Part shown: positions 6,184-46,805 of the stretch, piece by piece | Position numbering within the stretch: the first letter of the stretch is position 1 | Layout of the letters: each line of letters begins with the position of its first letter | Assembly: GCF_018771565.1 (NCBI RefSeq) | Contig: NZ_CP076326.1 | Coordinates: 2,356,001-2,420,000 of the forward strand | Reading direction: 5' to 3' | From: Thermoflexus hugenholtzii | GTDB taxonomy: Bacteria; Chloroflexota; Anaerolineae; Thermoflexales; Thermoflexaceae | Length of the DNA: 64,000 nt | Notes under the pieces: model-generated | Told to the model about the DNA's origin: nothing | Databases searched by the model: none | What the model saw: only the letters and a program-made list of their open reading frames with translations | Program-made: the position numbers and the translations under genes

Positions 6184-6801
6184 TCAACAGGGGATGCCCG
6201 TTCGACGCCAGTTTCCACACCCGCAGATATTTCCCCACCAGCAGTTGTTCCCGCTACAGCACCACTGACGAAGAAGATCCCCGATCCACAGCACCTGCCC
6301 ACCGCTGGGATCCGGGCGGCATTCTGAGCATGCGTTGCTCTGGTAGACTGCGCAATCGCAAACCGCAGTGGGTTGGGGGGGCATTGTAGAGGCATGGGCC
6401 TTGGATTTGGATGGAAGCCGGAAGGGTGAAACCAGGAAGGCAACCAGGATCCCACTCCCGAGCTTCCGGAGCATCTCCCGCCGTCCCCAATCCACGTCCA
6501 GCACTGGTCCACCGAAGCGGGCCACGGCCTGGGCCACCCGCCACGCCCGCGCCGGGCCCAGGACCTGCACCAGGCGCCAGCGCATCGCCAGACCCGTGAA
6601 GACCCGTATCTGCTCCCCTTCGATCTCCAGGAGCATCGGCTCCCAGCGCCAGTTGGGGTGAGCCTGGTTCAGCAGGGCCTGGACCTCGGGCTCCCGTAGC
6701 GATCGCACCCCCAGCCGCCCGCCGCTCAAGGCCTCCACCTCCCGGGCCAGGGCGGTGCACACCGCACACCCGCTGTCAAAGAGAAGATATCGTTCGGTCA
6801 T
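6184..6801 (-). CDS. DCC-type thiol oxidoreductase leader fused to a Cys-rich domain (locus A)
   Basis: A 205-residue protein. Residues 1-95 match the DCC/DUF393 family: LLFDSGCAVC gives the CxxC pair at 12/15, followed by GGRLGVRSLREPEVQALL, WRWEPMLLEIEGE and LGPARAWRVAQAV. A twin-arginine-like segment follows (DWGRREMLRKL near 101-111) with a hydrophobic stretch. The tail of about 80 residues is Cys-rich (CDC, CSEC, WCCSGNNCWWGNICGCG). This is the only copy in the window with an undamaged leader; related leaders occur at 36865-46019. SD AGGGAGG precedes ATG 6801. Predicted orientation: leader in the cytoplasm, Cys-rich tail outside. It is followed by a dedicated-looking ABC exporter. Function unknown. 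Confidence 0.75.
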   Translation of the reverse strand: MTERYLLFDSGCAVCTALAREVEALSGGRLGVRSLREPEVQALLNQAHPNWRWEPMLLEIEGEQIRVFTGLAMRWRLVQVLGPARAWRVAQAVARFGGPVLDVDWGRREMLRKLGSGILVAFLVSPFRLPSKSKAHASTMPPQPTAVCDCAVYQSNACSECRPDPSGGQVLWIGDLLRQWCCSGNNCWWGNICGCGNWRRTGIPC

Positions 6802-7352
6802 GGCCTTGCCTCCCTGGAAGGGGTTCCACTTCTCATCTTATCCCCTTTGCCCTCGGCGCGCTTCCTCATTTTTGGAGGAACCCCTTCGGCGGCGATCCAT
6901 CCTCCCAGATGCCCCATGCGCTGGCCGCAGGCCGTCTCCTGGCCCGGAAAGGCATTTGGGTATGCTGGGTGCCAGGGAAGTGGTGGAAGCAGCCCGCGCC
7001 GCAGGCCTCACGCGTATTCGGGTAGGGAATGCCTTTCTTCTGGATCTGCCTGCCTCGGGGGTCATGTAGCGCCTGAGCCCGGTGAAAAAGGCCAGATTCA
7101 CAGCGGGAAGAGAAGAAACCACTGGCGATGCTTGTCAGGGCATTGGCCTTTTTTTGACGGTAAGACGCTCCAGAGCCAGAATGGCAACACCTTCCGCGGC
7201 TTGGACCGTGGCCTCCACACCCCTCACTATCCCGAGAGGGTGGGGTTCCGCCAGGCGCTCGATTCGCTCAGGAAGGGGGCGGATCGCTCCCGTTATCTGC
7301 CAGAGTGAGACACGGGCGTTTCGAAAATGGCCTTGAGGAAAGGAGCCTGACT
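6802..7352 (+). other. Gene-poor region with conserved leader hairpin and a possible gene remnant
   Basis: No confident gene. 6802-6882 closely resembles the sequence upstream of the DCC leader at 46019, including the 19-bp hairpin TTCCTCATTTTTGGAGGAA at 6862-6880, and is probably the 5' leader of the gene at 6801. A frame around 6961-7069 on the plus strand (AREVVEAARAAGLTRIRVGN...) resembles the C-terminal part of a radical-SAM protein, but it has no start or Cys motif and may be chance or a remnant. Confidence 0.4.
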
Positions 7353-33240: not shown

Positions 33241-34899
33241 TCAGGGGGTAGGAAGCCATTCCATCAGGGTGTTACGACAACCCTCCCCTCCTCGCTCCTC
33301 CACCACCAGGACCATCGCCTCCCCCGCATCCCAGCCTCCCCACACGCGGGCGGATCCGGAAAGCGTCACCACTTCGCGCGTCCGTCCCGTCCGATCCACC
33401 GCCATCACCTGCGCCGGGTTGACCTCCCTGGCCCCCCACACCTCCGCTCCTCGGATCCCAATCGAGCCAGGGATCAGGCCGGACAGGGGTCGCACTCCTT
33501 CGGCATCCGGCGGCAGCGGCAGCCAGCCCACCTCCCAGACGGCTGGTCCTTCCCGCGCCACCACGACAAACCCGTTTCCCCCCGGCGCCCAGCCTGGCCG
33601 CCAGAGTTCGGTCCAGCCCGGGAACCGCCATCCTTTCCCCGAATCCAACTCCGCGGCCGGGGCCACCCACACCCCGGTGATCCGCCCCGCGGTCCGGTCG
33701 AAGATCGCCGCCCCGATCCACTGTCCATCCCAAGACACCTCCCAATTCACCGGGACCTCCTCCGGCCCCCACCCCAGGGCCGTCCCATCCAGAACCCGCC
33801 CGCTGCGGATCTCCACCACCTGCCCCAGGGAGGCCAGACGGATGCTGCCGTCCGGCCCCTGCTCCAAAATGACCGGCGCGCCCTCCAGCACCCAGCGTCC
33901 CCTCCCCACCACCATCGCCCCATACGGCAGCAACGCGTCCGTCCCGACCACCACCCGTCGGTAGTGAACTGGCCCTGCCGCCGGCGTCCCCCATTCCAGG
34001 GGGATCCGCCAGATCCGCACCTCGTCAAAAGCCTCCGGCACCTCGGGAACCGGGGTGGGAGGCTGCCTCCGGGGAGGCGGCGAGGGCTCGGCCCGGGGCG
34101 GTCGGGGCGTGGGCGTGGGAAGCCGCACCACCGTCTCCGCTTGCAAGGCCACCGCCCACGGGCTCTCCGCCCCCACCGCCAGCCACCCCGCCCGGAGAGG
34201 CGTCCCCTGCGGGTCCCTCACCGGCTCCCATCGTCCTCCTCCCAGCGATCCCCGCCATACCCCGCCATCGGCATCCAGGGCCACCACCACCCCGCCACCG
34301 GCGTAGCCGGCCCAGACCATCGACGCCGGCGCGTTCAGGTTCATCAGGTCCTCGCCTGCGCGCCACGTCACCACCGATCCCTCCGCCGTCGCCGCCACCC
34401 ACCGCCCATCCGGAGCCCGCGTGGGCCGATCGCGCGGCCCGATCCATCGGACGTCCGGGATGAAGCAGAAGGGGAAAACCGCGGGGCTGCGCCGATGGGC
34501 ATCTCCCTTCCGATCCAGGATCATCCGCATCGATGCGCACCCCTGGCCGATCCAGCGGACAGCCCAGACATCCAGGAAGCGGCCGTCCGGGGAGCGGTCA
34601 AAGGGAAGCAGGTAAAGAGGCGCCGGGGCCCCCGGCGTCAGCCGGCGCAGGACCCCTCCGGCCCGCCTCTCCGTCTGCCAGGACCAGCCGGCCGGATCAG
34701 GGAATGAGGGCGCGGCGGACGCCTCGGCCCCGCTCGGACAGGTTGGCGTCGGGGAGGGCCAGGGAGTCCACGTCGGGGAAGGCGGGAGGGGAGCACGAAG
34801 GGTGGGGGGACCCGATGGGATCGGCATAGGGGCTCCCGCCCTACACCCCAGGATCAGCATCCATCCGATCCCGATGACCCAACGCCCTATCCGTCGCAT
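33241..34899 (-). CDS. Secreted lipoprotein, probable beta-propeller
   Basis: A 552-residue protein. The start at 34899 (MRRIGRWVIGIGW) follows GGGAGGTGG and gives a signal sequence ending in the lipobox ILGC. A Pro-rich linker follows, then blocks with repeated SPDGR/APDGRW and SWDGQW motifs and regularly spaced Trp, as in beta-propellers. A second Pro-rich linker lies at about 270-300. Function unknown. The upstream gene (35044-36786) has the same architecture and is probably a paralogue. Confidence 0.75.
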   Translation of the reverse strand: MRRIGRWVIGIGWMLILGCRAGAPMPIPSGPPTLRAPLPPSPTWTPWPSPTPTCPSGAEASAAPSFPDPAGWSWQTERRAGGVLRRLTPGAPAPLYLLPFDRSPDGRFLDVWAVRWIGQGCASMRMILDRKGDAHRRSPAVFPFCFIPDVRWIGPRDRPTRAPDGRWVAATAEGSVVTWRAGEDLMNLNAPASMVWAGYAGGGVVVALDADGGVWRGSLGGGRWEPVRDPQGTPLRAGWLAVGAESPWAVALQAETVVRLPTPTPRPPRAEPSPPPRRQPPTPVPEVPEAFDEVRIWRIPLEWGTPAAGPVHYRRVVVGTDALLPYGAMVVGRGRWVLEGAPVILEQGPDGSIRLASLGQVVEIRSGRVLDGTALGWGPEEVPVNWEVSWDGQWIGAAIFDRTAGRITGVWVAPAAELDSGKGWRFPGWTELWRPGWAPGGNGFVVVAREGPAVWEVGWLPLPPDAEGVRPLSGLIPGSIGIRGAEVWGAREVNPAQVMAVDRTGRTREVVTLSGSARVWGGWDAGEAMVLVVEERGGEGCRNTLMEWLPTP

Positions 34900-35043
34900 C
34901 ACCACCTCCCGGATCGGCGGGTTCGATCGAGCGCCGGAAGGACCGGATGGGGAGCACGCTGCGCGATGACGGGATCCCCCGCTCCGGCCTCGATCCATCG
35001 CCCTCCATCCCCACCTCAAATGCCGAAAGGCCCAGCGGGCCCC

Positions 35044-36786
35044 TCACGGGGTATCGACGAGGGATCCTGCCAGCGGCAGCTCCAGGAGCGCGAAGCGACA
35101 GGGCGTCCCCGATGCCACCCGCTCGAAGGCCCCGATCCACACCCGTTCCCCCTCCCCCAGCAGGCCATAGATCCGCTCCACCACCGCGGAGAGGTCCCAC
35201 TCCCCTTGCAGGTGCCCGGCCTTATCCCAGAGCTGCAGCGCCGCCGGGTTCATCCGGGATAGGGTCACCAATCCCCCTTCCAGAAACGCCAGAGGTCCGG
35301 CGGTCGCCGCCTCCGCTAAGGACACTGGCTCCCCGTTGGGATCCGGAGGCAGCCGCAGCCACTCCAGCTGATCCTCCCCCACGTCCCACAGCACCACCCC
35401 ACCCCCTGCCGGATCCCGGGCTACCCAGGTCCGACCCGGCCACCGGCGCACCCATCCCGGCTGCGCCCCATCCAGCAAATACAGGCTCCGCGCTCCCCGC
35501 CAGCCGCCCTCCGGCCCCACCTCCGCGAACTCCACCGCCAGCCACCGTCCATCGGGGGAAAGGTAAAAGCTCGGCCCCATCACCCCGCCCTTTGGCAGAT
35601 CCACCAGCGGATCCCTCAATCCCAGGTCCTCTGGACCCTCCACCCGCCCGGTAGCCCCATCGATGGTCAACCCAAATTGCACAACCGGCTTGCCTTCGGG
35701 CCGCAGGATCGCCACCCGGCACCACAACAGCCACCGGCCCGAGGTCCCCACAGGGAACAGGTCACACACGGACTCGGGGCCATCACCTGGAATCCGGGAG
35801 ATGGGGAGAGGCGGAAAGGACTGAAGCGGAGCTCCAGGATGAGCCGGGATGCGCCAGGAGGGACTGTGGGCCGGCTCAAGGCCGTTGACGCCGCCGATCG
35901 CCAGCCACATCCACTCGGAGCGATCCCACGCCCAGCTCCGAAAGACCCAGTCCCCGGGATGGTCCTCTGGGATCTCCCCCAACCGCTCCCACTGTCCCGT
36001 GGCGGCGTCCCCCCGCCACCACATCGACCGATTCCGTTCCCGCGCCAGCACGATGGTCCCGGTCATCACCAACGCCTCCCCCATCGGCGCCGGCGCCCCC
36101 AGATCCCGAGAAACGCCGCGAGCCGGATCCTCCAGCCTCACCCGCCCATCCGGCGTCACCCGCAGCGCTTGGGATCCTATCCGGTCCGAGGGGAAGGTCT
36201 CCTGCCGCGCCCGCAGCTGGGCCGCGGCCCGCGGCAACCAGAGCTCCCAGGCCGCTCCCCGCACGTGGGGCTGGAAGATCAGCTCCGGGCTTAGAAAGAT
36301 ATCCCAGGCCTTCTCCGGATGCAACCGCCGATGGGCCTCCCTCCGCAGGTCCACTGCCACCTGAATGGCCCGGGCGTTCCGGTTCAGCAACAACCGCACC
36401 TCCAGCGCCGCCCCTCCCGACAGAACCCGCCAGGGCAGAGGGGGTTGGATCAGACCACGGATCCCGCGTAGGGGTTGCCCGCCCGCCGATGCCGGCTCCC
36501 ACCGCCAGTGGGAAGGATCCGGCAGCAAGGCACGATCGGCCGGCGTGGGGTTCTCCGGATCCGGGACCTCCTGAAACACACAGGCCGGAGGGGCGGGGGA
36601 TGGGGTCCTTGCGGCGGCCCGGGTAGGGGTGGTCCCTCCCGAGGGACGCGTGGGAATCGATAGAGGGGTGGCTGGCGTGGGAGCCGGTGAAGGGGCGGGT
36701 GGCCACAAGGGTTGGCAAGCCTCCCAGATCCCTGCTGCCAGGACCCCCCAAACAATGACCCAGCGAAGGACCGTCCCGGCTTGCAT
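35044..36786 (-). CDS. Secreted beta-propeller-like protein, probable paralogue of the next gene
   Basis: A 580-residue protein with an N-terminal hydrophobic signal (VLRWVIVWGVLAAGIWEAC), which may be a lipobox at the Cys, followed by a long Pro/Thr linker. PDPSHWRWEPAS resembles PDPAGWSWQTER of the downstream protein. Blades are suggested by SPDGRWLAVEF, TPDGRVRL and repeated W-containing strands; the last strand (GTPCRFALLELP) parallels GEGCRNTLMEWL of its neighbour. ATG 36786 follows GAGGAGGGG. Function unknown. Confidence 0.75.
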   Translation of the reverse strand: MQAGTVLRWVIVWGVLAAGIWEACQPLWPPAPSPAPTPATPLSIPTRPSGGTTPTRAAARTPSPAPPACVFQEVPDPENPTPADRALLPDPSHWRWEPASAGGQPLRGIRGLIQPPLPWRVLSGGAALEVRLLLNRNARAIQVAVDLRREAHRRLHPEKAWDIFLSPELIFQPHVRGAAWELWLPRAAAQLRARQETFPSDRIGSQALRVTPDGRVRLEDPARGVSRDLGAPAPMGEALVMTGTIVLARERNRSMWWRGDAATGQWERLGEIPEDHPGDWVFRSWAWDRSEWMWLAIGGVNGLEPAHSPSWRIPAHPGAPLQSFPPLPISRIPGDGPESVCDLFPVGTSGRWLLWCRVAILRPEGKPVVQFGLTIDGATGRVEGPEDLGLRDPLVDLPKGGVMGPSFYLSPDGRWLAVEFAEVGPEGGWRGARSLYLLDGAQPGWVRRWPGRTWVARDPAGGGVVLWDVGEDQLEWLRLPPDPNGEPVSLAEAATAGPLAFLEGGLVTLSRMNPAALQLWDKAGHLQGEWDLSAVVERIYGLLGEGERVWIGAFERVASGTPCRFALLELPLAGSLVDTP

Positions 36787-36864: not shown

Positions 36865-36995
36865 AGGGTGCCGCCCTGCTGCAACAGCCGCCGCCTTCCC
36901 CAATCCACCCCCAGCACCGGCCCGCCGTGCCGGGCCACCGCTTGAATCACCCGCCACGCCCGCAACGGGCCCCGCACTCGAAGCAGCCGCGCCCC
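36865..36995 (-). pseudogene. DCC-leader remnant (locus B)
   Basis: Only the end of the leader survives: RGPLRAWRVIQAVARHGG followed by GVDWGRRRLLQQGG, the twin-arginine-like segment. Upstream, no CxxC module or start codon is found. The frame continues some 40 residues without recognisable cargo before running into the next gene. It is a truncated copy of the leader seen at 6184-6801. Confidence 0.7.
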
Positions 36996-37111
36996 GTGAT
37001 CGCCTCTTCCGCAAGAAGAAATTCTTCAGGCGTGAAGATGCTGGCATTCCGCGCCTCCCGAAAGGATCCAGCCTTGCCTCGTGACCTTCTCCCTGTGGGG
37101 ACCAGAGGGTC

Positions 37112-37771
37112 TTATGGCAAGCGCAGCGCCCGGATCTGGGCCTCCAGCTCCTCCCAGCGTAGCGGCTGTCGCTCCTCCGGTGGCCCATCGAAGACCTCCT
37201 CTCCCCATCGCCCATCCGGGCGCGCCTTCAGATACGAGGCAGCCGGGAAACCTATAAACATCCACACGGATCGCCTGCCCCCCTCCCACACCAGATCCCT
37301 CCGGCTCAGAAAGGCTACAATGGAATCCCCCACGTGGAGCTGGTGCTCCGCAGGCACTTTCACCCATCGCTGGTGAGCCGGAGGCGCTTCCAGGGGGCTG
37401 TTCCCTATGACGACGACTTCGATCGAATCCGGGAGTGACTCGCGCGCGGCCAGCGTTTGGATCACCCGCAAGGTGACCGTGTGGATGGGCACGGGAACCG
37501 GGCGATCCGGGATTTCAGGGGGGAGTGGGGTCCAGGGCTGGCCGCTGTCCGAGTTCCAGCGGGTGGGGGAGATGGCCTGCACCTCGGCCCGCACGATGGC
37601 ATCCGCCTGCTGAATCCGTTCCCGGCGGGACAGCGCCGCGTATACCGGATGCGCTGAAACGAAGGGGGAGGGGGGAGGGGTGTTGAGAAGACCCGGCTGG
37701 CATCCCAGCCCGCTCAACACGCTCAGCACGAGAAGAAACCTTCGATTTTTCGAAATGATATACGAAAACAT
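37112..37771 (-). CDS. Lipoprotein partner of a matrixin protease (pair 1)
   Basis: A 219-residue protein starting at ATG 37771 (AAGGAGGATTTCCT upstream) with lipobox LSGLGC. The mature part shows ADAIVRAEV, HTVTLRVIQTL, SIEVVVIGN and HVGDSIVAFLSRRD, and ends with LEAQIRAL. The same series of motifs is found at 42511-43089, behind another matrixin gene. Small secreted proteins with an ADxIVxGxV opening are, as far as I know, common neighbours of matrixin genes in several phyla; their function is unestablished. Confidence 0.7.
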   Translation of the reverse strand: MFSYIISKNRRFLLVLSVLSGLGCQPGLLNTPPPSPFVSAHPVYAALSRRERIQQADAIVRAEVQAISPTRWNSDSGQPWTPLPPEIPDRPVPVPIHTVTLRVIQTLAARESLPDSIEVVVIGNSPLEAPPAHQRWVKVPAEHQLHVGDSIVAFLSRRDLVWEGGRRSVWMFIGFPAASYLKARPDGRWGEEVFDGPPEERQPLRWEELEAQIRALRLP

Positions 37772-37871
37772 AGGAAATCCTCCTTCGCAAACGTAGTAAG
37801 AACTATGGACAATTCCATGTTGGGAGGCTGAGATATTGTCTTCAAAGGTCCTGGCTCCCTTAACGTGTCCA

Positions 37872-38684
37872 TTACCGCGGATACAAATACAAAGCTCCAT
37901 TTTGGTCATCGGCCTCTAAACTTCGAAACCATGTAGTTCCTCGAAAGATTTGACCACACATTGTGGCATCCGTGGCATTTCCAGGGCAGTAAATGGACTG
38001 GGTATCACGCAAGCCCAGTGCGTGACCGAACTCATGGGTGATCACTGACCAGGCATCATATTGGTTGCTTGCAGGAGTTCCCGTTCCTGTATACCAGTTT
38101 TCATTTTTATCATATCGAATCCAGAACGATTGGATCGTGTATCCGTATCCCGAGAGGACTGTGACTGCGAGAACATTTCCTGGCCCATCCCACCCTCCCC
38201 ACTCGATGGAATTGGGTGATCCGCTATATTTGATATAGCGCCAGCTCGTGGTGGGGACGCTGCTCCAAGCCGATGCGCCACGATCAGTGGGATCCCAGAA
38301 GGCCATTGGAAGGTAGCCATAGCGATACGTGGCGTAATTCGTGGACCACTTGCAACACACCGAATATGCGAATGCGTTATGGAAAAAGAGCAACATAGTG
38401 AGGAGGATCAGAAAGCTAAGAAGGAGAGGTTGCATACGTGACGGGCTCGCTATCTGAGCGCCACAGGTCACCGCCTGGGCCACCCGCAGGGCCCGCGCCG
38501 GGCCCAGGATCTGGAGCAATCGCATCCGCATCGCCAGCCCCGCCAAGACCCGCACCCGCTCCCCCTCGACCTCAACGAGCATCGGCCCCCACCGCCAGTT
38601 GGGATGAGCCTGGTTCCGCATCGCCTGGACCCCGGGCTCCCGTAGCGACCGCACCCCCAGCCGCCCGCCGCTGAGGGTTTCCAC
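37872..38684 (-). CDS. Matrixin-type metalloprotease in frame behind a damaged DCC leader (locus C)
   Basis: A 270-codon frame. Residues 1-80 are DCC leader (GGRLGVRSLREPGVQAM, LGPARALRVAQAV) without the CxxC. From ATG 38435 there is an independent secretion signal (MQPLLLSFLILLTMLLFFHN, then AFA) and a metzincin: THEFGHALGLRD supplies two His and an Asp as third zinc ligand, as in snapalysins, and TMCGQI may be the Met-turn. The mature protease probably starts at 38435, though no good ribosome site is there; the leader may be translated or vestigial. The cargo is much AT-richer (25 of 60 G/C at 38101-38160) than the leader (43 of 60 at 38581-38640). Confidence 0.65.
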   Translation of the reverse strand: METLSGGRLGVRSLREPGVQAMRNQAHPNWRWGPMLVEVEGERVRVLAGLAMRMRLLQILGPARALRVAQAVTCGAQIASPSRMQPLLLSFLILLTMLLFFHNAFAYSVCCKWSTNYATYRYGYLPMAFWDPTDRGASAWSSVPTTSWRYIKYSGSPNSIEWGGWDGPGNVLAVTVLSGYGYTIQSFWIRYDKNENWYTGTGTPASNQYDAWSVITHEFGHALGLRDTQSIYCPGNATDATMCGQIFRGTTWFRSLEADDQNGALYLYPR

Positions 38685-38747
38685 CTCCCGCGCCAGGGCG
38701 GCGCATATGGAACGTCCCGCATCCTACAGCAGCCATCGTTCGGTCCT
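38685..38747 (-). pseudogene. Broken N-terminus of the DCC leader at locus C
   Basis: Same frame as the downstream CDS. Aligned to locus A the start codon ATG is AGG (38747-38745), the Phe of LLFD is a TAG stop (38726-38724), and the first Cys of CxxC is Arg. Locus D has exactly the same three defects. Confidence 0.75.
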
Positions 38748-38966
38748 CGCTTCCCCTCCGCTCGGATCAGCCTTCGGTTTTCATTCGATCCAGCCGGCAG
38801 GAGCCGTGGTCCTCCAAAAAGGAGGACACAGAGTGGCCATCCGGGTTCCCGGCCACCCGGGGCCGGGAACCCGGCGACCTCCCTCTCCGCCTTTCCGCCC
38901 GCCATCCGCACAACGCCGCCATTCGGGTAGGCTCAGCGCAGGGACCAGAGGCGCACGGTTCCATCC
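38698..38966. repeat. 269-bp duplication, copy 1
   Basis: Nearly identical to 42045-42313 (I saw two mismatches). It spans the damaged start of the DCC leader, hairpins GTCCTCCAAAAAGGAGGAC (38809-38827) and CCGGGTTCCCGGCC/GGCCGGGAACCCGG (38841-38874), and the last codons of the WD40 gene. Confidence 0.9.
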
Positions 38967-40912
38967 AGAGATCCAGAGGCCAGCGTTCGGCCATCGGGGG
39001 AGGTCTTGAGGGCGAGGATGGCGTCCGTGTGGCCTTCCAGGATCTGGAGCAGCGCCCCATCGGGCACCCGCCAGATTTTCACGGTTCCCTCTCCACCGCC
39101 TGAGGCCAGCCAGGCTCCTCCCGGCCCGAAGGCCAGGCGGAGCACCGCCGCGGTGTCCGCCGCCCAGCGCGCGAGGAGCCGTCCGGTAGCCACGGAATAC
39201 AGGGCGATCCAGGGGCCGTCGAGGCCGCCCTCCGCGACGGCCAGCCACTCGCCCGCCTCCGAGAGGGCCAGCGCTTCGATCGGCTTTCCAGTTCCCGGCT
39301 TCACGCGCTGCCTCAGGGCGCCATCCGGGACCTGCCATACCCCGATTTCCCGGCCGTCGGAGGCGGCCACCCAATTGCCATCCGGCGAGAAGGTCACCAG
39401 CGGGAGGATCTTCCCGGAAAGTCCATCCAGCCGGCGCAGGGCTTGCCCATCCGCGCGGCGGAGGATCCGAAGACCACCTGTCGGATCGCTCAGAGCAAGG
39501 GCTTCACCATCGGGGGAGAAAACAGCCGTGCCACCTCCCGGCATCCGGAGCACGCGCTCTCCATCCATCGTCCGCCAGATCCCCCACCCGCCCTCTCCGA
39601 GCTCACCAGGATCGGGAGCCAGCAGCCAGCGTCCATCGGGGGAAAGCGCGAGGGCTCCCAGCGGCTCCGCCGGCAGGGTCAGGCGCTGCACCCGCCGGGC
39701 CGTGGGGCCGATGGCCTCCCAGAGCGACACGATCCACTGAGGGGCGTTGAGGGGTCGCTGGCTGTAGGTCGCGATCCACAGGCGATCTTCTCCGAAGGCC
39801 AGGTCCAGCACCGGCTCCAGATATCCCTCCCAGCGGCCTTCCTGCGTCCCTTCCGGGAGACGCCGGATCTCCAGGATGCCGCCGGCGTGGGCAATGGCCA
39901 GCTGCAAGTCCTTGGGGGCAAAGGCCAGTCCCACCACGGCGCCCTCTCCCATCTCGTGCCTCCATCGGAGGCGCTCCCCGGCTCCTTCCCAGACGGCCAC
40001 CGTCCCTCCTTCGGTGCCGGCTGCCAACCATTGCCCATCCGGCGAGAAGGCCAGACGACGGATAATCCCCCGGCCGCCGATGAGAAGCCTCCTGCGGAGT
40101 TGTCCATCGCGCCCGGAATACAGATGCACCTCCCCTCCGATCCCGATCGCCAGCCACGCGCCATCCGGGGAGAGGGCGAAGGTCCTGGCCCTCTCCCCCG
40201 GTGGGAGGGCCCATGCCACCCGGCGGATCCCCACTCCGTCTGCGATCCGTCGCCATTCCCCCTCCGATGGACCTGCCAGAATCAGCGTCTCCCCATCGGG
40301 GGCGAAGGCGGCCCATCCGGCCCCGGGCGCAAAGATTTTCCCCAGCTCGTCACCTTCGGGGACGCGGATCCGACGCACGGCGTTCGAAACGGTCCAGGCC
40401 AGCTGACGGCCATCCGGGGAGAAAGCCAGGGTGGGGGATTCCAAAGCGGGATCGATGGCGTCGGGGAGGACCCGAATTCGCTCGATTCCCTGACCCCTAT
40501 GGGCCCACAGCCACAGGTCCCGGCCCACCAGGGCGGCCAGCCAGCGGCCATCCGAGGAGAGGGCCATGGCTTTCAGCCGGGCCGGAAGAGGTTGCTGCCA
40601 CACCCCTTCGCCGGTCTTCGGCGCGAGGCCCTCCAGGCCCTTCGCAGTCCCAACAATCAGCCGGGGCCCCTCCGGGCTCCAGGCGATCTCCTGCAGGATG
40701 CCCTTGCCGATCACCCGCTCCAGCCGGAACCCTGGAAAGGCTCGCAGGGTCTCCCGGGTTGGCAGAGGAGAAGACGGAGCTACGGGGCTCTCCTCGCGCC
40801 CAGGAGATTGGAAATTTTCAGAAGGAGGAGCAGAAGGTGAGGCTGAAGATACGCAGGCAAGCATTCCGCTTAAACAGATCCAGCAAAGAATCAAAAGGAT
40901 TTTCCAGCGCAT
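38933..40912 (-). CDS. WD40-repeat lipoprotein
   Basis: A 659-residue protein starting at ATG 40912 (AAGGAGAG upstream). The signal sequence ends with lipobox GMLAC, followed by a Ser/Pro-rich linker. The rest is made of about a dozen WD40-like units, each with SPDGRWLA-type turns (SSDGRWLAALVG, SPDGAWLAIG, SPDGQWLAAGTEGG, SPDGRTLASGSLDG) ending in GTVRLWSLR. This predicts one or two beta-propellers outside the membrane, probably for protein binding. Function unknown. The last codons are included in the 269-bp duplication. Confidence 0.88.
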   Translation of the reverse strand: MRWKILLILCWICLSGMLACVSSASPSAPPSENFQSPGREESPVAPSSPLPTRETLRAFPGFRLERVIGKGILQEIAWSPEGPRLIVGTAKGLEGLAPKTGEGVWQQPLPARLKAMALSSDGRWLAALVGRDLWLWAHRGQGIERIRVLPDAIDPALESPTLAFSPDGRQLAWTVSNAVRRIRVPEGDELGKIFAPGAGWAAFAPDGETLILAGPSEGEWRRIADGVGIRRVAWALPPGERARTFALSPDGAWLAIGIGGEVHLYSGRDGQLRRRLLIGGRGIIRRLAFSPDGQWLAAGTEGGTVAVWEGAGERLRWRHEMGEGAVVGLAFAPKDLQLAIAHAGGILEIRRLPEGTQEGRWEGYLEPVLDLAFGEDRLWIATYSQRPLNAPQWIVSLWEAIGPTARRVQRLTLPAEPLGALALSPDGRWLLAPDPGELGEGGWGIWRTMDGERVLRMPGGGTAVFSPDGEALALSDPTGGLRILRRADGQALRRLDGLSGKILPLVTFSPDGNWVAASDGREIGVWQVPDGALRQRVKPGTGKPIEALALSEAGEWLAVAEGGLDGPWIALYSVATGRLLARWAADTAAVLRLAFGPGGAWLASGGGEGTVKIWRVPDGALLQILEGHTDAILALKTSPDGRTLASGSLDGTVRLWSLR

Positions 40913-40926
40913 TTCTATATCTCTCC

Positions 40927-41292
40927 TTATGGGGCGGTTTTTGTGGGACATGGTATAGAATAATCAAATCGATAAATAGGTGTCGTGCCTCCAGTAACTA
41001 TTTGCCCGCAGTATAGAGAAACACGAGTTCCTCCCGTCCTTTCCATGTGCGTGTGAGGGTCTGTATAGCAGCAACCGGACGAGCAACCACAAGGAGCACA
41101 ACATGATCCTTGAGATGTTTGACCGAGGAGTAACGGGCCACTCACGACATGCCATCCATCGGGAGCCTCTTTAGATTTATCCGGATCATTGTAAGGAATA
41201 TAATCCACATACCCAAACCAAACAGAACCCACATAACAACCTTCAGAAGACCTTCTCCGGAAAGATCGGCTCCTCGGGCCGATCCGGCGCAT
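40927..41292 (-). CDS. Cys-rich secreted-type domain, probably frameshifted cargo of locus D
   Basis: A frame of 121 codons; only the part after about residue 18 looks like protein (CYVGSVWFGYVDYIPYN, then CCAPCGCSSGCCYTDPHTH and TRVSLYCGQ). The first residues are a frame-shifted reading of the end of the preceding CDS (41243-41929), and no good start or ribosome site is seen. A frameshift that cut the Cys-rich end off that protein is the simplest explanation. Cys-rich tails follow the leaders at loci A and F as well. The alternative is a short gene with a non-canonical start. Confidence 0.45.
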   Translation of the reverse strand: MRRIGPRSRSFRRRSSEGCYVGSVWFGYVDYIPYNDPDKSKEAPDGWHVVSGPLLLGQTSQGSCCAPCGCSSGCCYTDPHTHMERTGGTRVSLYCGQIVTGGTTPIYRFDYSIPCPTKTAP

Positions 41293-41929
41293 ACACCGGC
41301 CACACCGGATAGGGGGACGGATACATCGGCTGGGCGATCACCCGGAGCCGCGGCACCCCCTCCCCATCCCCAAAGTTCAAGGACACCGAAAACACCTCCC
41401 CCGAACGCGCAAATCGGGTGACGGCCACGCCCTGCCACACGATCCCCGGCGGCAGCCGGGAGGGCCCATACAAGGGGAACCGGATGAGGGAACGCAACGG
41501 CGCCAGTTCCGTAAATGTGAGGGTCTCCCCGCGCAGGGCCTCGGCCTCCGGGCGGCCATCGGTCTGGCACAGAATCGGGGTGGGAACCTGGCGAACAAAG
41601 GGAGGAATCGGGGCGCCTTCCGGAAGCAGCACGAAGCCCTCCCAGAGCTCGCCCGCTCCGGTGGCGGGCGGGGTGGGCGGGTCCTTCTCGGGCCTGGCCA
41701 TTGGGGAGCCTCCGGGGAGGCGACGGAGGAGGGCCAGGGCAGCCAGGGCGCCGCCCTGCTGCAGCAACCGCCGCCTCCCCCAATCCACGCCGAGCACCGG
41801 GCCTCCCATCCGGGTCACCGCCTGGGCCACCCGCAAGGCCCGCGCCGGGCCCAGGATCTGCACCAGGCGCGCCCGCATCGCCAGCCCCGCCAAGACCCGC
41901 ACCCGCTCCCCCTCGACCTCCAGGAGCAT
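41243..41929 (-). CDS. DCC-leader protein with secreted beta domain (locus D)
   Basis: A 228-codon frame starting at the ATG of the leader motif EPMLLEVEGERVRV. It includes LGPARALRVAQAVTRMGG and the twin-arginine-like GVDWGRRRLLQQGGALAALA, which is a good candidate Tat or anchor segment. The cargo of about 150 residues is beta-rich with few Cys (VLLPEGAPIPPF, GIVWQGVAVTRFARSGEVFS) and not recognised. It ends at PEEPIFPEKVF, exactly where a Cys-rich frame takes over in another phase. The leader upstream of 41929 contains two in-frame stops. Confidence 0.55.
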   Translation of the reverse strand: MLLEVEGERVRVLAGLAMRARLVQILGPARALRVAQAVTRMGGPVLGVDWGRRRLLQQGGALAALALLRRLPGGSPMARPEKDPPTPPATGAGELWEGFVLLPEGAPIPPFVRQVPTPILCQTDGRPEAEALRGETLTFTELAPLRSLIRFPLYGPSRLPPGIVWQGVAVTRFARSGEVFSVSLNFGDGEGVPRLRVIAQPMYPSPYPVWPVYAPDRPEEPIFPEKVF

Positions 41930-42094
41930 CGGCTCTTAGCGCCAGCCGGGGCGGGCGCGGTCCAGCAGGGCCCGGACCTCGGGCTCCCGTAGCGATCGCA
42001 CCCCCAGCCGCCCGCCGCTCCAGGCCTTCACCTTCCGGACCAGAGCGGCGCATATGGAACGTCCCGCATCCTACAGCAGCCATTGTTCGGTCCT
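41930..42094 (-). pseudogene. Broken N-terminus of the DCC leader at locus D
   Basis: In frame with the CDS at 41243-41929. Start codon lost (AGG at 42094-42092), TAG stop at 42073-42071, CxxC reduced to one Cys, and a TAA stop at 41938-41936 in place of the Trp before EPM. GGRLGVRSLREPEVRALLD is still readable between. Confidence 0.75.
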
Positions 42095-42313
42095 CGCTTC
42101 CCCTCCGCTCGGATCAGCCTTCGGTTTTCATTCGATCCAGCCGGCAGGAGCCGTGGTCCTCCAAAAAGGAGGACACAGAGTGACCATCCGGGTTCCCGGC
42201 CACCCGGGGCCGGGAACCCGGCGACCTCCCTCTCCGCCTTTCCGCCCGCCATCCGCACAACGCCGCCATTCGGGTAGGCTCAGCGCAGGGACCAGAGGCG
42301 CACGGTTCCATCC
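42045..42313. repeat. 269-bp duplication, copy 2
   Basis: Matches 38698-38966. It carries an orphan end of the WD40 gene (GTVRLWSLR and stop, near 42287-42313) although no WD40 gene precedes it here, so this copy is the derived one. The hairpins are at 42156-42174 and 42188-42221. The following 200 bp (42314-42510) contain no recognisable gene. Confidence 0.9.
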
Positions 42314-42510
42314 CGACCTTCCCGACCTTCGGAAAGAAGTTCGGACACCCGCCCAAATGGGGCTAGGTCAACCCCGAATTGAAGCCCCGCGAGCGGCTTG
42401 AAGTCACTATCGGAAGCCAGCTGAGGCAGGCTGTAACGGGTCCCAATAATCGCGGTGTCCGAACTGCATTCCGAATCTCAGGCATCAAGGCAAATTCCTT
42501 AAGGCCTCTT

Positions 42511-43089
42511 TCAGCGTGAAGCGGCCTTTATCCGTTCTCGGATATCCGTTATGTCCATACCGACCCACGTTGAGAACCCATAAGCCCCTGTTGCAATCAC
42601 CTGCCCTCGATCATTCAGTGCCAGGATCCCCTGGGAGTGCCCCACGACGGCCCATATCCCCGGCTTCGCCGATGCGGTCAGGAACAAGAGATATTCCCCC
42701 GGGGGCAAGGGTCCTGAGAAACCTCCCTCCTCCTCTGCGATCCGAAAGCCCTGAGCCCGTGCTTCCGGTGTCACGCTCAAGCGAAGGATCCGCAAGTGAG
42801 GGATCGGGGTAGGGCCTTTCAGGACCTCAAGCACTTGAACGGTCTGGACGAGCGAAACCAGCCGTCCGTCCGAGGAATACGCGATCGGTTCCGGAGATCC
42901 AAGAGGGCGAGCCCGAACGATCCACTCCGCTTCACGTATCATGGTCTGTTCATCCGGAGCGTAGTCTATATCCAAAACAACCCACCCCCGCAGGTCATGG
43001 GGAGGCGCTCCACGGGTCAATCGATCCCTTGCGCTAATCGCGAGGGCCAGCAAAATTGCAATCCCCATTCCAATAACTCGAAATCGCAT
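42511..43089 (-). CDS. Secreted partner of a matrixin protease (pair 2)
   Basis: A 192-residue protein with an N-terminal hydrophobic signal (FRVIGMGIAILLALAIS). Motifs AEWIVRARP, LVQTVQVLEVLKGP, HLRILRLSV, PPGEYLLFLTAS and the C-terminal ITDIRERIKA match, in order, those of the protein at 37112-37771. It follows the matrixin gene at 43103-43870 by 13 bp, as that one follows another matrixin gene. ATG 43089 follows GGAGGTTGAC. A chaperone, inhibitor or adhesion role would fit but nothing shows it. Confidence 0.75.
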   Translation of the reverse strand: MRFRVIGMGIAILLALAISARDRLTRGAPPHDLRGWVVLDIDYAPDEQTMIREAEWIVRARPLGSPEPIAYSSDGRLVSLVQTVQVLEVLKGPTPIPHLRILRLSVTPEARAQGFRIAEEEGGFSGPLPPGEYLLFLTASAKPGIWAVVGHSQGILALNDRGQVIATGAYGFSTWVGMDITDIRERIKAASR

Positions 43090-43102
43090 GTCAACCTCCG
43101 TC

Positions 43103-43870
43103 TCAATACCTATTGTTGATATCTTGATAATCGTGACTTTGTAAATTGGTGATTAGCCAATTGTGGCAGCGCTGTCCGTGATCAGCATAAAGGATGCTAT
43201 AGAGAGAATTGTGAGCGAACCCGGCTCCGTGACCGAGTTCGTGAATCGCGGTGCATATTTTCTGGTCAACTGTATGAGGAATTACATTAAAATGAGGAAA
43301 ATTGAAGTAAAAAGATCCGGCTTGTATGATATGGGTGGTGCGATTAACATAAATCGATGTAGCGCCCGCGACATTTATGTCAGGGTAATTAAGGTCACCC
43401 CATAGCATTAATGCGGAAGTTCGTTGAGCCCAATAGTAGTCAAAATCTGAAGCATTGAAATTCCTCGCTGCTTGCTGTATGGCAATCTGATAGGAAGAAT
43501 CCCATGAAGTAGGCCACCAGTGACTGGTGGAGGTTCCATACCACCGAACAGGAATCCCATCACCACAAATATTCCAGTCATGAGCCGCAGCTTTGAGAGT
43601 ATTAAAAACAAAACTTAACAAGAAAATGTAAAACAAGTAAAACAAAAATTGCAATCGTCCACTGTTACTCTTAGAGATAAAGCTCCCGAAGCGAGCCACG
43701 GCCTGGGCCACCCGTAGCGCCCGCAGCGAAAGGCCCGCCAAGACCCGCACCCGCTCCCCTTCGATCTCGACAAGCATCGGCTCCCAGCGCCAGCCGGGAC
43801 GGGCACGGTCCAGCAGGGCCTGGACCTCGGGGTCCCGCAAACTTCGCACCCCCAGCCGCCCGCCGCCCAA
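43103..43870 (-). CDS. Matrixin-type metalloprotease in frame behind a truncated DCC leader (locus E)
   Basis: The frame begins inside the leader (GGGRLGVRSLRDPEVQALL, WRWEPMLVEIEGERVRV), which also lacks about 11 residues between VLAGL and ALRVAQAV. A very hydrophobic segment (LQFLFYLFYIFLLSFVFNTL) acts as signal; a TTG at 43654 could be the true start. The cargo is a metzincin with AIHELGHGAGFAH, the complete HExxHxxGxxH zinc site. Cargo DNA is AT-rich (20 of 60 G/C at 43261-43320) against 42 of 60 in the leader at 43741-43800, so the two parts have different histories. Confidence 0.65.
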   Translation of the reverse strand: MGGGRLGVRSLRDPEVQALLDRARPGWRWEPMLVEIEGERVRVLAGLSLRALRVAQAVARFGSFISKSNSGRLQFLFYLFYIFLLSFVFNTLKAAAHDWNICGDGIPVRWYGTSTSHWWPTSWDSSYQIAIQQAARNFNASDFDYYWAQRTSALMLWGDLNYPDINVAGATSIYVNRTTHIIQAGSFYFNFPHFNVIPHTVDQKICTAIHELGHGAGFAHNSLYSILYADHGQRCHNWLITNLQSHDYQDINNRY

Positions 43871-43894
43871 ACGGCGAAAGCCCCCCGTTCCCCC

Positions 43895-44575
43895 TCACGG
43901 ATAAACCCACCAGATCAACCAGTGACCCTGCCGCCGGATCAGGAAGAAATGGGCATTCAGGGCAGGGGCCGCCTGGAGCGCCTCCGCACACGGCCCTGCG
44001 CATACTACCACCCACCATGAACGGGCCAGCACCTCCCGCCCGCACATATTGGCGATCAATTCCCCATACGGAGATTCACCCGCCGGCCGGGGATCGGTCA
44101 CCCGTTCCGAGGGGATCCGTGCCTCCGCCGGCAGGGCAGGCGTGGCCGGGGTCGCCAGCCGGGCCCAGTCGATCTGTGCCCAATGGGAGGGATCGTAGGC
44201 CTGCCGCACCGTCTCCGGGTCGCCGGAGGTGGCAGCCCGGAGCACGGCCAGGGCTTCCTCCTTGGAGAGAGGGGTGGTTTCCAGGCCCTGGGGATTGGGG
44301 CATCCCTGGACGCCGGGGACGATCACCCCAGGCCGCAGGGGGAGGGGAGAGGGATAGATCTCGGGGGGCAAGGTCGGCCCGGGGGTGGGAGCGGACGTAG
44401 GGAAAGGGGAGGGCGAAGGCGAAGCGGACGGGATAGGTGTGGGGAGCGGGGAAGGCGAAAGGGACCCCAGAGAGGAGGGGGTCGGGTGGGCTCCCCCGCA
44501 TCCCGCGCCGAGGATCGCCAGGCCAATGGCCCACGCCCGCATCATCCCTCGAAGTCGATGAACCCCTCCGATCAT
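43895..44575 (-). CDS. Lipoprotein of unknown function
   Basis: A protein of about 226 residues with signal sequence ending in lipobox ILGAGC, followed by a 50-residue Ser/Pro linker. The globular part includes VQGCPNPQGLETTPLSKEEAL, GDPETVRQAYDPSHWAQIDW, CGREVLARSWWVVVCAGPC and ends with GHWLIWWVYP. The final part resembles the NTF2-like or DUF4878-like pattern of small secreted domains, but no family is assigned. Start 44575 chosen for GGAGGGGACG just upstream; 44545 is also possible. It lies between loci E and F. Confidence 0.7.
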   Translation of the reverse strand: MIGGVHRLRGMMRAWAIGLAILGAGCGGAHPTPSSLGSLSPSPLPTPIPSASPSPSPFPTSAPTPGPTLPPEIYPSPLPLRPGVIVPGVQGCPNPQGLETTPLSKEEALAVLRAATSGDPETVRQAYDPSHWAQIDWARLATPATPALPAEARIPSERVTDPRPAGESPYGELIANMCGREVLARSWWVVVCAGPCAEALQAAPALNAHFFLIRRQGHWLIWWVYP

Positions 44576-44597
44576 CGTCCCCTCCATTCTTACGATC

Positions 44598-45854
44598 TCA
44601 CGATGGGCATTGCGCCAGCACCCGCACCTCGCAGGAGAAGCACCCTCGCCGAACAGGATCGTAGAAGTAGGCGAAGGTGGGCTTGGTCAGATCAATGATG
44701 GCCGCTCGACCTCCCCGGCAGTCTGCGCAGGACCGATTACACAGATCCGTGTCCGGATGATTGGGAACACAATCTGGAATACAATTGGCGCGCTGGCAAG
44801 GTCCACAGCTGGCAATATAGACGGTCCTCACCTTGGTGCTGCATTGGTCATAGACCACCACATCCTTGCCGCAAGCGAGGTAAATCTGGTTTTTACAGTT
44901 CCGAGAGCAATCGCAGCAGTTCCAGGTGCAACAGCCACAGGTATCCATCGCAGGCCAGGCGGCCTGATCACTGCGAGCGAGGTTGCATGTCCCACAGCGG
45001 CCTGCGCCGGTCGGGCAATCAAACCAGCCCGCATACCCCGTGTAGATATACCAGCACAAGCCATTCGGGCCGACCTCGATACGATCCGCCGCAGGTGGGG
45101 AATCGGCGGGGGAAGAGAGCCTCTCGACTTGACGGGCTGAATGCACCCAGATACGAGTGCCCCGGATCCCCTCCGGGATCCGCTCTCCAATGACATCCAC
45201 GAAATCCCCTTCCTCCAGTCGAAGGGGAGATGCATCCCGCGGGCGTTCAGTAAGCCAATCGGCCACCGACACCTCTTCCCCAGGTTCTAACCGGAGAGTC
45301 CTCGGTGCGTTGTACAGACCGCCCGTCCGCAGCTCATAGCCTCCCGGAATCACTCGCGTCACCACCCCCTGCACCCGAGTCAAATTGGCCCATAGCCGGA
45401 GGGCCGTTCCTGAAGGAACGTGGAGACGGATCATCAGCTCGTCTCCCCTTGTGAGGGTGGAAAGGGGACGCTCGCCGCCTTTCCAAACCGATATCCCGTT
45501 GGGGATGCGGATCTTACGCAGACCAGTAGGGGTCTCGATCTCTACCTCATCGTCAGTGAACGCACGAAGGGAACCCGCCAGGACTTCGATCTCCCCCAGG
45601 GATGACGGAGAGGGATGGAGGGGGGAGATAACAGAGCGGAGACGTGGTCCGATCGCGAAGGCACCGAAAGCGCCCAGGGCCCGTCCGAGGAACCGCCGCC
45701 TTCCCCAATCCACGCCCAGCACAGGGCCTCCCATCCGGGCCACCGCCTGGGCCACCCGCAAGGCCCGCGCCGGGCCCAGGATCTGGAGCAACCGCATCCG
45801 CATCGCCAGGCCCGCGAAGACCCGCACTTGCTCCCCATCGATTTCGACGAGCAT
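44598..45854 (-). CDS. DCC-leader protein with Cys-rich double-psi-barrel-like domain (locus F)
   Basis: A 418-codon frame beginning at the leader ATG in EPMLVEIDGEQ. The twin-arginine segment GVDWGRRRFLGRALGAFGAF is the best Tat-like motif of the family. Then comes a beta-rich region of about 180 residues (VEIETPTGLRKIRIPNG, ELMIRLHVPSG, GDFVDVIGERIPEG). The C-terminal 150 residues have some 25 Cys (CGCCTWNCCDCSRNC) in a pattern like the RlpA/expansin double-psi barrel: LACGKDVVVYD, VYIASCGPC and AAIIDLTKPTFAYFYDP. The leader upstream is intact except for one TAG. Possibly expressed by reinitiation at 45854. Confidence 0.65.
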   Translation of the reverse strand: MLVEIDGEQVRVFAGLAMRMRLLQILGPARALRVAQAVARMGGPVLGVDWGRRRFLGRALGAFGAFAIGPRLRSVISPLHPSPSSLGEIEVLAGSLRAFTDDEVEIETPTGLRKIRIPNGISVWKGGERPLSTLTRGDELMIRLHVPSGTALRLWANLTRVQGVVTRVIPGGYELRTGGLYNAPRTLRLEPGEEVSVADWLTERPRDASPLRLEEGDFVDVIGERIPEGIRGTRIWVHSARQVERLSSPADSPPAADRIEVGPNGLCWYIYTGYAGWFDCPTGAGRCGTCNLARSDQAAWPAMDTCGCCTWNCCDCSRNCKNQIYLACGKDVVVYDQCSTKVRTVYIASCGPCQRANCIPDCVPNHPDTDLCNRSCADCRGGRAAIIDLTKPTFAYFYDPVRRGCFSCEVRVLAQCPS

Positions 45855-45863
45855 CGGCTCCCA

Positions 45864-46019
45864 CTACCAGCCGGGGCGGGCCCGGTTCAGCAGGACCTGG
45901 ATCTCGGGATCCCGCAAATTCCGCACCCCCAGCCGCCCGCCGCTGAGGGCCTCCACCTCCCGCGCCAGGGCGGCACATACGGAACACCCACCGTCAAAGA
46001 GAAGATACCGCTCGCTCAT
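45864..46019 (-). pseudogene. N-terminal DCC module of locus F, ended by an in-frame TAG
   Basis: In frame with the CDS at 44598-45854. It starts MSERYLLFDGGCSVCAALAR with an intact CxxC (12/15) and ribosome site, and reads on to RARPGW, then TAG at 45866-45864 in place of the Arg codon of GWRWEPM. The next in-frame ATG is only 9 nt beyond. It could be a decaying gene, a sequencing difference, or a short ORF translationally coupled to the next. Confidence 0.65.
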
Positions 46020-46066: not shown

Positions 46067-46118
46067 TTCCTCATTTTTGGAGGAAAGAGCGGCCTGGCCT
46101 TCCTCATTTTTGGAGGAA
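46067..46118. repeat. Tandem copies of the conserved hairpin
   Basis: TTCCTCATTTTTGGAGGAA occurs at 46067-46085 and again at 46100-46118, 33 bp apart; a third copy is upstream of locus A (6862-6880). The second copy contains the stop codon of the LuxR-type gene. The stem includes a GGAGG on one strand. Confidence 0.85.
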
Positions 46119-46805
46119 CCCCGCCTCGAGGCGATCCTCCCCGAGCCAGGGGGGGTCTTCGAGGTCCAGGAGGGGGGCGATGTAGGGATCATCAAGGCAG
46201 CCGCTGCGGACCCACTGGCGGAGGGCGACGCGGTCGGGGAGCCCCAGGCGGTGCAGGAGCCAGCGGAGGTGGGTGCGGATGGAGGTGGGGCGCCGGCGGA
46301 GGGCCTGGGCGATCTCCTTGTCGCTCCAGCCACGGGCGACCCCCAGGGCCACGGCCCGCTGGCGGGGGGAGAGGGCCGCCCAGGGCTCCCCGAAGCGAAC
46401 CCACCAGGCCTGGGCCCGGCGCCGGTCGGCGGGGTGCCAGGAGAGGGTGCCCTGGAGGGCGGCACGGAGGCGAACGCGGAGGAGAGGGAGGGGCAGGGTG
46501 GTGAAGAGGACGGCGCAGGCGCCGGCCTTCCAGGCGAGAGCGAGGCCGGCCGGATAGGGATCCGCGAGGAGGAGGAAGCCGTCGAGGGCGATCCCCTCCT
46601 GGCGGAGGGCGTGGAGGAGGCGCGGGCCGGAGCCATCGGGGAGGGCGAAGTCGATGAGGAGAACGGCGGGGGGCTGGCGGCGGACGCGGCCAAGGGCCTC
46701 CGCCACGGTGGGGGCGATCCAGGCCACGGGGAAGCCCTCCGCTTCAGCCAGGGCCTGGAGGCCGAGGGCCCGGAGGGGGCATCCGCTCACCACGCCGATC
46801 GCCAT
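46104..46805 (-). CDS. LuxR-family response-regulator-like transcription factor
   Basis: A 233-residue protein. Residues 1-115 form a degenerate receiver domain: LLIDFALPDGSG has the acceptor-type Asp near 51, but the usual DD pair near the N-terminus is absent (GVVSGCPLRALG), so phosphorylation is doubtful. The C-terminal helix-turn-helix is LSPRQRAVALGVARGWSDKE then IAQALRRRPTSIRTHLRWLL. No histidine kinase is adjacent. It is the first gene of the co-directional accessory block and may control locus F or more of the block (inference). ATG 46805 follows GGAGGGAACG. Confidence 0.85.
   Translation of the reverse strand: MAIGVVSGCPLRALGLQALAEAEGFPVAWIAPTVAEALGRVRRQPPAVLLIDFALPDGSGPRLLHALRQEGIALDGFLLLADPYPAGLALAWKAGACAVLFTTLPLPLLRVRLRAALQGTLSWHPADRRRAQAWWVRFGEPWAALSPRQRAVALGVARGWSDKEIAQALRRRPTSIRTHLRWLLHRLGLPDRVALRQWVRSGCLDDPYIAPLLDLEDPPWLGEDRLEAGFLQK

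Follow-up and report, generated by a model that had tools for sequence, protein, structure and literature searches.

How does one and the same N-terminal segment come to precede, in frame, secreted proteins of quite different kinds? The question is raised by a 64,000-nucleotide stretch of the Thermoflexus hugenholtzii genome (contig NZ_CP076326.1, positions 2,356,001 to 2,420,000 of the forward strand), hereafter referred to as the window; coordinates are positions in it unless stated otherwise. Six loci in the window, A to F, all on the minus strand, have in common a conserved leader some 110 residues long. An earlier note had described this leader as a DCC-like module, followed by a twin-arginine-like segment and by a different cargo at each locus, and had proposed that it forms an export or folding system with interchangeable passengers. 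Here, the leader was searched for in the entire genome (3.3 Mb, a single contig) and in relatives. The genome contains 11 matches in four regions, and their E-values (2.4e-70 to 1.6e-5) show that the family is not due to chance; among them are copies at roughly 603-614 kb and 2,559-2,568 kb in genome coordinates. Both the common module at A and B to F and the change of cargo from locus to locus were confirmed. The leader, a thioredoxin-like domain for which no model existed, precedes a twin-arginine translocation (Tat) signal, and comparison of the sequences strongly supports both its fusion to the cargo and the Tat anatomy of the precursor.

Locus A is the sole uninterrupted full-length fusion among the window loci. 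Its leader (residues 1-104; 6490-6801) has an intact thioredoxin-like domain, as judged from the sequence and an AlphaFold2 (AF2) model, and carries the CxxC motif as CAVC. The Tat-type signal (6391-6489) consists of GRREMLR, which begins at residue 106, a hydrophobic stretch with a hydropathy of 1.92, and AHA, read from the sequence. The cargo (6184-6390), a short segment with 10 cysteines, is kept in three other Thermoflexus genomes and represents a separate class of short Cys-rich cargo. In T. japonica (L075, genome G008, 3758-5007, compared with window 6594-6971), the locus syntenic to A has about 1.2 kb of other DNA in place of the first ~69 residues of the leader, and the Tat signal and cargo are retained.

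The leader is carried by eight of the nine genomes of the genus, this one included, in 1 to 19 copies each. A search with profile A1 detected it in 18 of 396 genomes of the class and in 13 of 400 genomes of the phylum, and a protein search of plasmid records added Streptomyces, Rubrobacter, Hoyosella and Thermomicrobium. The 28 leader proteins compared from outside the genus, which come from Chloroflexota, Thermomicrobium, Rubrobacter and Streptomyces, are all in-frame fusions, and the order leader, Tat signal and cargo is found across the classes of Chloroflexota as well as in the other three taxa. Leaders of relatives are almost all in frame and free of stops, the exceptions being the short fragments L147, L169 and L181. 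Three S. clavuligerus records in which a cargo related to fulvocin C has no leader correspond to one truncated fragment. Because the fusions recur across phyla, the possibility that a stand-alone leader gene was joined to its neighbours by local decay, which the earlier note had raised against itself, is ruled out, and its central idea of a shared leader with exchangeable cargo is supported.

Residues D9, C12, C15, P55 and L57 of the leader are invariant or nearly so. Among the 28 proteins from outside the genus, the CxxC motif is present in 27 and the P-x-L motif, which resembles the cis-proline motif of thioredoxins, in all 28; in the window, CxxC is found in A and, as CSVC, in F, as had been reported. 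Judged from substitution rates, the leader is under purifying selection, with dN/dS values of 0.10-0.17 outside the genus and 0.17-0.44 within it. AF2 gave the order strand-helix-strand-helix-strand-strand-helix, with pLDDT values of 78.7 and 83.0 in two models, and in the model made from a 38-row alignment (pLDDT 83) a helix begins at the CxxC motif. All matches obtained with Foldseek and VIA belong to the thioredoxin superfamily (thioredoxin, protein disulfide isomerase, glutaredoxin, glutathione S-transferase and KaiB/SasA), and a search of the leader sequence against the PDB gave no match. A thioredoxin fold is plausible for the leader on the basis of these models.

The relation to the DCC family is more distant than had been suggested. 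With the Pfam model PF04134 (DCC1-like; gathering cut-off 27.8 bits), E<=0.1 is reached by 12 of 22 leaders, the best at 9.3e-5, and all reported scores (15.4-22.5 bits) fall below the cut-off, so the leader was rejected as a plain member of that family. Aligned by hhalign to two bona fide DCC proteins, which do not have the P-x-L motif, the leader matches with a probability of 75.5% and an E-value of 2.4e-5. It resembles DCC1-like proteins in the position of the CxxC motif and in this distant profile match, and differs from them in its low Pfam scores, in the added P-x-L motif and in its place before a Tat signal. The DCC-like reading thus holds for the fold and for distant homology and fails for family membership. 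The genome that contains the window also has one ordinary stand-alone DCC1-like gene, outside the leader family (G000:C1:2619768-2620094, L008; PF04134, 76.6 bits).

An RR motif followed by a hydrophobic stretch is found at residues 100-113 in 22 of the 28 proteins, and nowhere else in their 9,755 residues; five of the six proteins that lack it are MauD-like fusions, described below. One leader protein, L068, passes the Tat signal model TIGR01409 (17.3 bits, cut-off 16.7), and TatC is encoded in the Thermoflexus genome. Moreover, in genome G096, which has no leader, a cargo of the WEGF type opens with a bare Tat signal, MLSRRRFLKVAGALGVVLL, its frame being broken downstream. The GRRRxL segment pointed out in the earlier note is therefore best read as a Tat signal, by its position, its hydrophobic stretch, the TIGR01409 match and this leaderless homologue. 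The segment is present at A, B, D and F and absent at C and E, where the leader runs into a hydrophobic, Sec-like stretch; the metzincins of C and E are not supported as Tat cargo. Tat signals insert with the N-terminus inside, and the thioredoxin-like part should therefore remain in the cytosol.

The cargo is mostly Cys-rich across the family. Three Streptomyces cargoes match the NCBIfam model NF033852 (bacteriocin fulvocin C-related; cut-off 35 bits) at 100.8, 93.9 and 128.8 bits, and an antagonistic function is likely for these. The same layout, a pro-region and a C-terminal Cys-rich peptide, is found in G023, G128, G528, G561, G737, G549, RI_153 and T. roseum; these cargoes match no model except for a weak match of L068 to the halocin C8 model TIGR04449 (10.9 bits, the best score obtained; cut-off 24). 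Neither Thermoflexus nor window cargoes reach the NF033852 cut-off, and assignment of the Chloroflexota cargo to the halocin C8 or fulvocin families was rejected for want of a model match. Antagonism in Chloroflexota therefore rests on analogy, and for the Thermoflexus cargo it is unproven. Other cargoes include a TPR protein with a Cys-rich end (G077 and G206) and a domain similar to double-psi beta-barrels. The latter, proposed for locus F, is supported solely through the relative HRbin08, whose match to DPBB_1 (E=0.0048) is below the cut-off. Metzincin cargo, which is preceded by a Sec-like stretch, is confined to Thermoflexus. Of the two metzincins proposed, that of locus C is a matrixin (PF00413, 36.2 bits, cut-off 24) and that of locus E, at 13.2 bits, is below this cut-off and retains HELGH in its sequence.

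In five leader proteins, a MauD-like redoxin (MauD model, E=1.7e-20) takes the place of Tat signal and cargo, and a signal is absent. Those of G077 and G206 adjoin a gene with a Tat leader, and this placement of signal-less fusions points to a disulfide-related role in the cytosol. Near the MauD fusions, a radical SAM/SPASM-like protein with CxxxCxxC was recognized by eye, accompanied in L139 and L143 by a methyltransferase-like gene (L139, 748-1947 and 7021-7740; L142, 9571-10809; L143, 2706-3968), which suggests a further context of peptide modification.

The WEGF domain has 0-2 cysteines. In all 15 loci examined, from four genera, a Cys-rich protein without a signal peptide, or a remnant of one, is encoded 0-250 bp downstream of it, and several of these partners are broken. 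In G002_C184, leader, Tat signal, the start of the WEGF domain and the partner form one fusion. When aligned, the partners show an invariant H-x-H and a GH resembling those of M23 enzymes; there was no match to Pfam M23, and by eye the first zinc ligand is absent. From this arrangement of genes, the partner is likely to be a Tat hitchhiker carried by the WEGF protein. Known hitchhiker export likewise involves a signal-less partner encoded beside a protein with a Tat signal, but here the carrier would be a WEGF protein and the partner a Cys-rich, M23-like one, a pair that to our knowledge has not been described. The partner was checked at every locus for WEGF cargo, while the other neighbourhoods were read by eye from lists of open reading frames.

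Taken together, the best explanation is that a precursor synthesized in the cytosol would begin with a composite leader, a thioredoxin-fold domain with CxxC and P-x-L followed by the Tat signal. The tethered domain would aid folding and cysteine pairing of the Cys-rich cargo, or of the partner encoded next to it, before export. The folded product would then leave through Tat, the signal would be cut, and the leader would be left behind inside. Many of the cargoes are bacteriocin-like, with a pro-region and a C-terminal Cys-rich peptide, and the WEGF cargo would act as a carrier for its partner. We favour this account as a whole, by a little over even chances. Its core, a role of the leader in folding or oxidation in cis, is about evenly poised; it is suggested by the conservation of CxxC and P-x-L, by the Cys-rich cargo and partners, by the MauD fusions and by the preference of Tat for folded substrates. 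The broadest form, a general system of at least two phyla in which a swappable oxidoreductase-Tat leader oxidizes its passenger or partner, proof-reads it for Tat, is cut and stays behind, and serves bacteriocin-type and other disulfide-rich cargo, is put forward tentatively.

Several observations weigh against this explanation. With TM about 0.4 and Z no higher than 6.5, the matches to known folds are weak. In G023, the second cysteine is missing from the leader although the cargo is Cys-rich, and the WEGF, PsbP-like and some other cargoes have only 0-2 cysteines. Some cargo can do without the leader, as two leaderless genomes with WEGF demonstrate. Rubrobacter has RG in place of RR, the metzincin fusions use a Sec-like stretch, and stops interrupt many Thermoflexus leaders while the cargo frame remains open. 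Finally, none of 301 Chloroflexota genomes matched TIGR04449, and the fulvocin model also had no Chloroflexota match, a weak absence given that the control genomes were matchless too.

Some of these points fit another function of the domain, as a holdase or proof-reading chaperone or as a docking domain of the Tat signal, a built-in counterpart of HyaE, which is a thioredoxin-fold chaperone of a Tat signal. The CxxC motif would then be structural or regulatory. The domain immediately precedes the RR motif, G023 retains fold and Tat signal without CxxC, and some cargo is Cys-poor; however, CxxC and P-x-L are kept outside the genus in the proportions given above despite variable residues between the cysteines, and five proteins have a MauD redoxin in place of Tat signal and cargo, which makes this function unlikely. 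Less probable again is that the leader maintains a toxic cargo in a reduced, inactive state within the cytosol, as an immunity acting in cis, with oxidation only outside. The cytosolic location expected from Tat topology and the bacteriocin-like cargo agree with it, but Tat favours folded substrates and the small membrane proteins encoded nearby are better candidates for immunity.

The remaining window loci are damaged to various degrees, and the claim that five of them are working fusions was too strong. The leader of locus F (45705-46019) has a TAG at codon 52 (45864-45866) and is followed by the Tat-type signal GRRRFLG and a cargo with a beta region and a Cys-rich double-psi-like region (44598-45704). 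That of locus D (41774-42091) has a TAG (42071-42073), has lost the first cysteine (RSIC) and has a TAA at the codon of W53 (41936-41938); it precedes the signal GRRRLLQ and a WEGF-type cargo truncated at its C-terminus (41243-41773), whose Cys-rich partner (40927-41292), with the M23-like HxH, is truncated and has no signal peptide. The leader of locus C (38466-38744) shares the same TAG (38724-38726) and the same cysteine loss with that of D, lacks the RR motif, and leads through the Sec-like stretch into the matrixin (37872-38465). Locus E has a leader remnant (43652-43870) that begins at about residue 24, the first ~23 residues being missing, without CxxC or RR, and the metzincin-like cargo (43103-43651). 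Locus B (36882-36989) is a remnant, a 36-residue leader tail that includes GVDWGRRRLL and is joined to the end of a Cys-rich cargo partner.

These loci are mosaics. The 240 bp upstream of leader C (38745-38984) are mostly 98-100% identical to 42092-42331 upstream of D. Loci C and D have upstream DNA and leader in common and differ in cargo, while C and its G001 counterpart share cargo and differ upstream. The block of leader F and the LuxR-type regulator immediately upstream (46104-46805) recurs in G001_C13 with another cargo. When locus A is compared with the syntenic copy of G001, identity is mostly 95-100% over flanks and cargo and only 85-88% over leader bases 60-300, and dS is 0 for the cargo and 0.29 for the leader; between copies in G002, dS is 0.14 in the leader and 1.46 in the cargo. 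Leaders tend to be nearest to those of the same genome or clade irrespective of cargo, the mean distance being 0.171 within a genome with different cargo and 0.203 between genomes with the same cargo. These patterns fit recombination or gene conversion of leaders between loci with different cargo; the divergence may also come from a mutation hot spot. In Thermoflexus, the genes would have increased in number and traded leaders through recombination; several of the copies, among them the majority of the window loci, would be decaying.

At least six loci, from three genomes, have a stop (TAA or TAG) at leader codon 52 or 53, shortly ahead of the in-frame M56 ATG (F and D above; L053 at ~3660, L056, L072 and L073); leader recombination may have spread these stops, or they may be connected with reinitiation. 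That the Thermoflexus leader DNA is mainly an expression or recombination cassette, with translation starting downstream and the thioredoxin part as passenger DNA, is very improbable, for although these stops, those in C, D and F, the ~200 bp of near-identical DNA upstream of C and D and an annotated start downstream of the leader in two Streptomyces records agree with it, leaders outside the genus have no stops, the dN/dS values are low inside and outside the genus, and two gene annotations (S. goshikiensis and S. anulatus) include the leader.

The genes that follow the metzincins of C (37112-37909) and E (42511-43089), both on the minus strand, are conserved alongside them in G001. Between the leader loci are large genes of lipoprotein-like and WD40/beta-propeller-like type (33241-35019, 35044-36786 and 38933-40951), and genes of this kind also border leader loci of other genomes. 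Several loci have a LuxR-type regulator upstream and a small membrane protein downstream. An S8 peptidase, a candidate maturation protease, is encoded beside leader genes on T. roseum and Rubrobacter plasmids (with the LuxR-type gene: L182, 1-1663 and 3229-3864; L178, 534-1931).

Parts of this design are known from other systems. The active, C-terminal fragment of halocin C8 is liberated by N-terminal cleavage (PMC12893001). The haloarchaeal precursor of this halocin, ProC8, is likewise exported by Tat and combines a pro/immunity part with a C-terminal peptide freed by cleavage (PMC11509114), but no N-terminal thioredoxin-like domain is described for it, and its model is not matched here. The Streptomyces members of NF033852 bear the present leader, Tat signal, pro-region and Cys-rich end, but the model spans only pro-region and peptide, the annotated genes of several records omit the leader, and the window cargoes do not match. 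Redox enzyme maturation proteins (REMPs; HyaE/HupG) and the engineered combination of CyDisCo with Tat (PMC6350376) also give cytosolic help with folding or disulfides ahead of Tat export; these act in trans, whereas here the helper would be a covalent part of the leader. In the literature searched, mostly non-subscription papers, no description of a thioredoxin-like leader with Tat signal and cargo was found.

For bacteria in which no cytosolic oxidation pathway is known, it is an open point how disulfide-rich proteins become oxidized ahead of export by Tat, and a leader with a thioredoxin domain of its own makes this question directly testable. The leader is furthermore a sequence handle for Cys-rich precursors of bacteriocin-like type, whose peptides vary too much for homology searches, and a natural design for making disulfide proteins through Tat. 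Folding helper and export tag, the family suggests, are made by bacteria as a single piece that can be removed.

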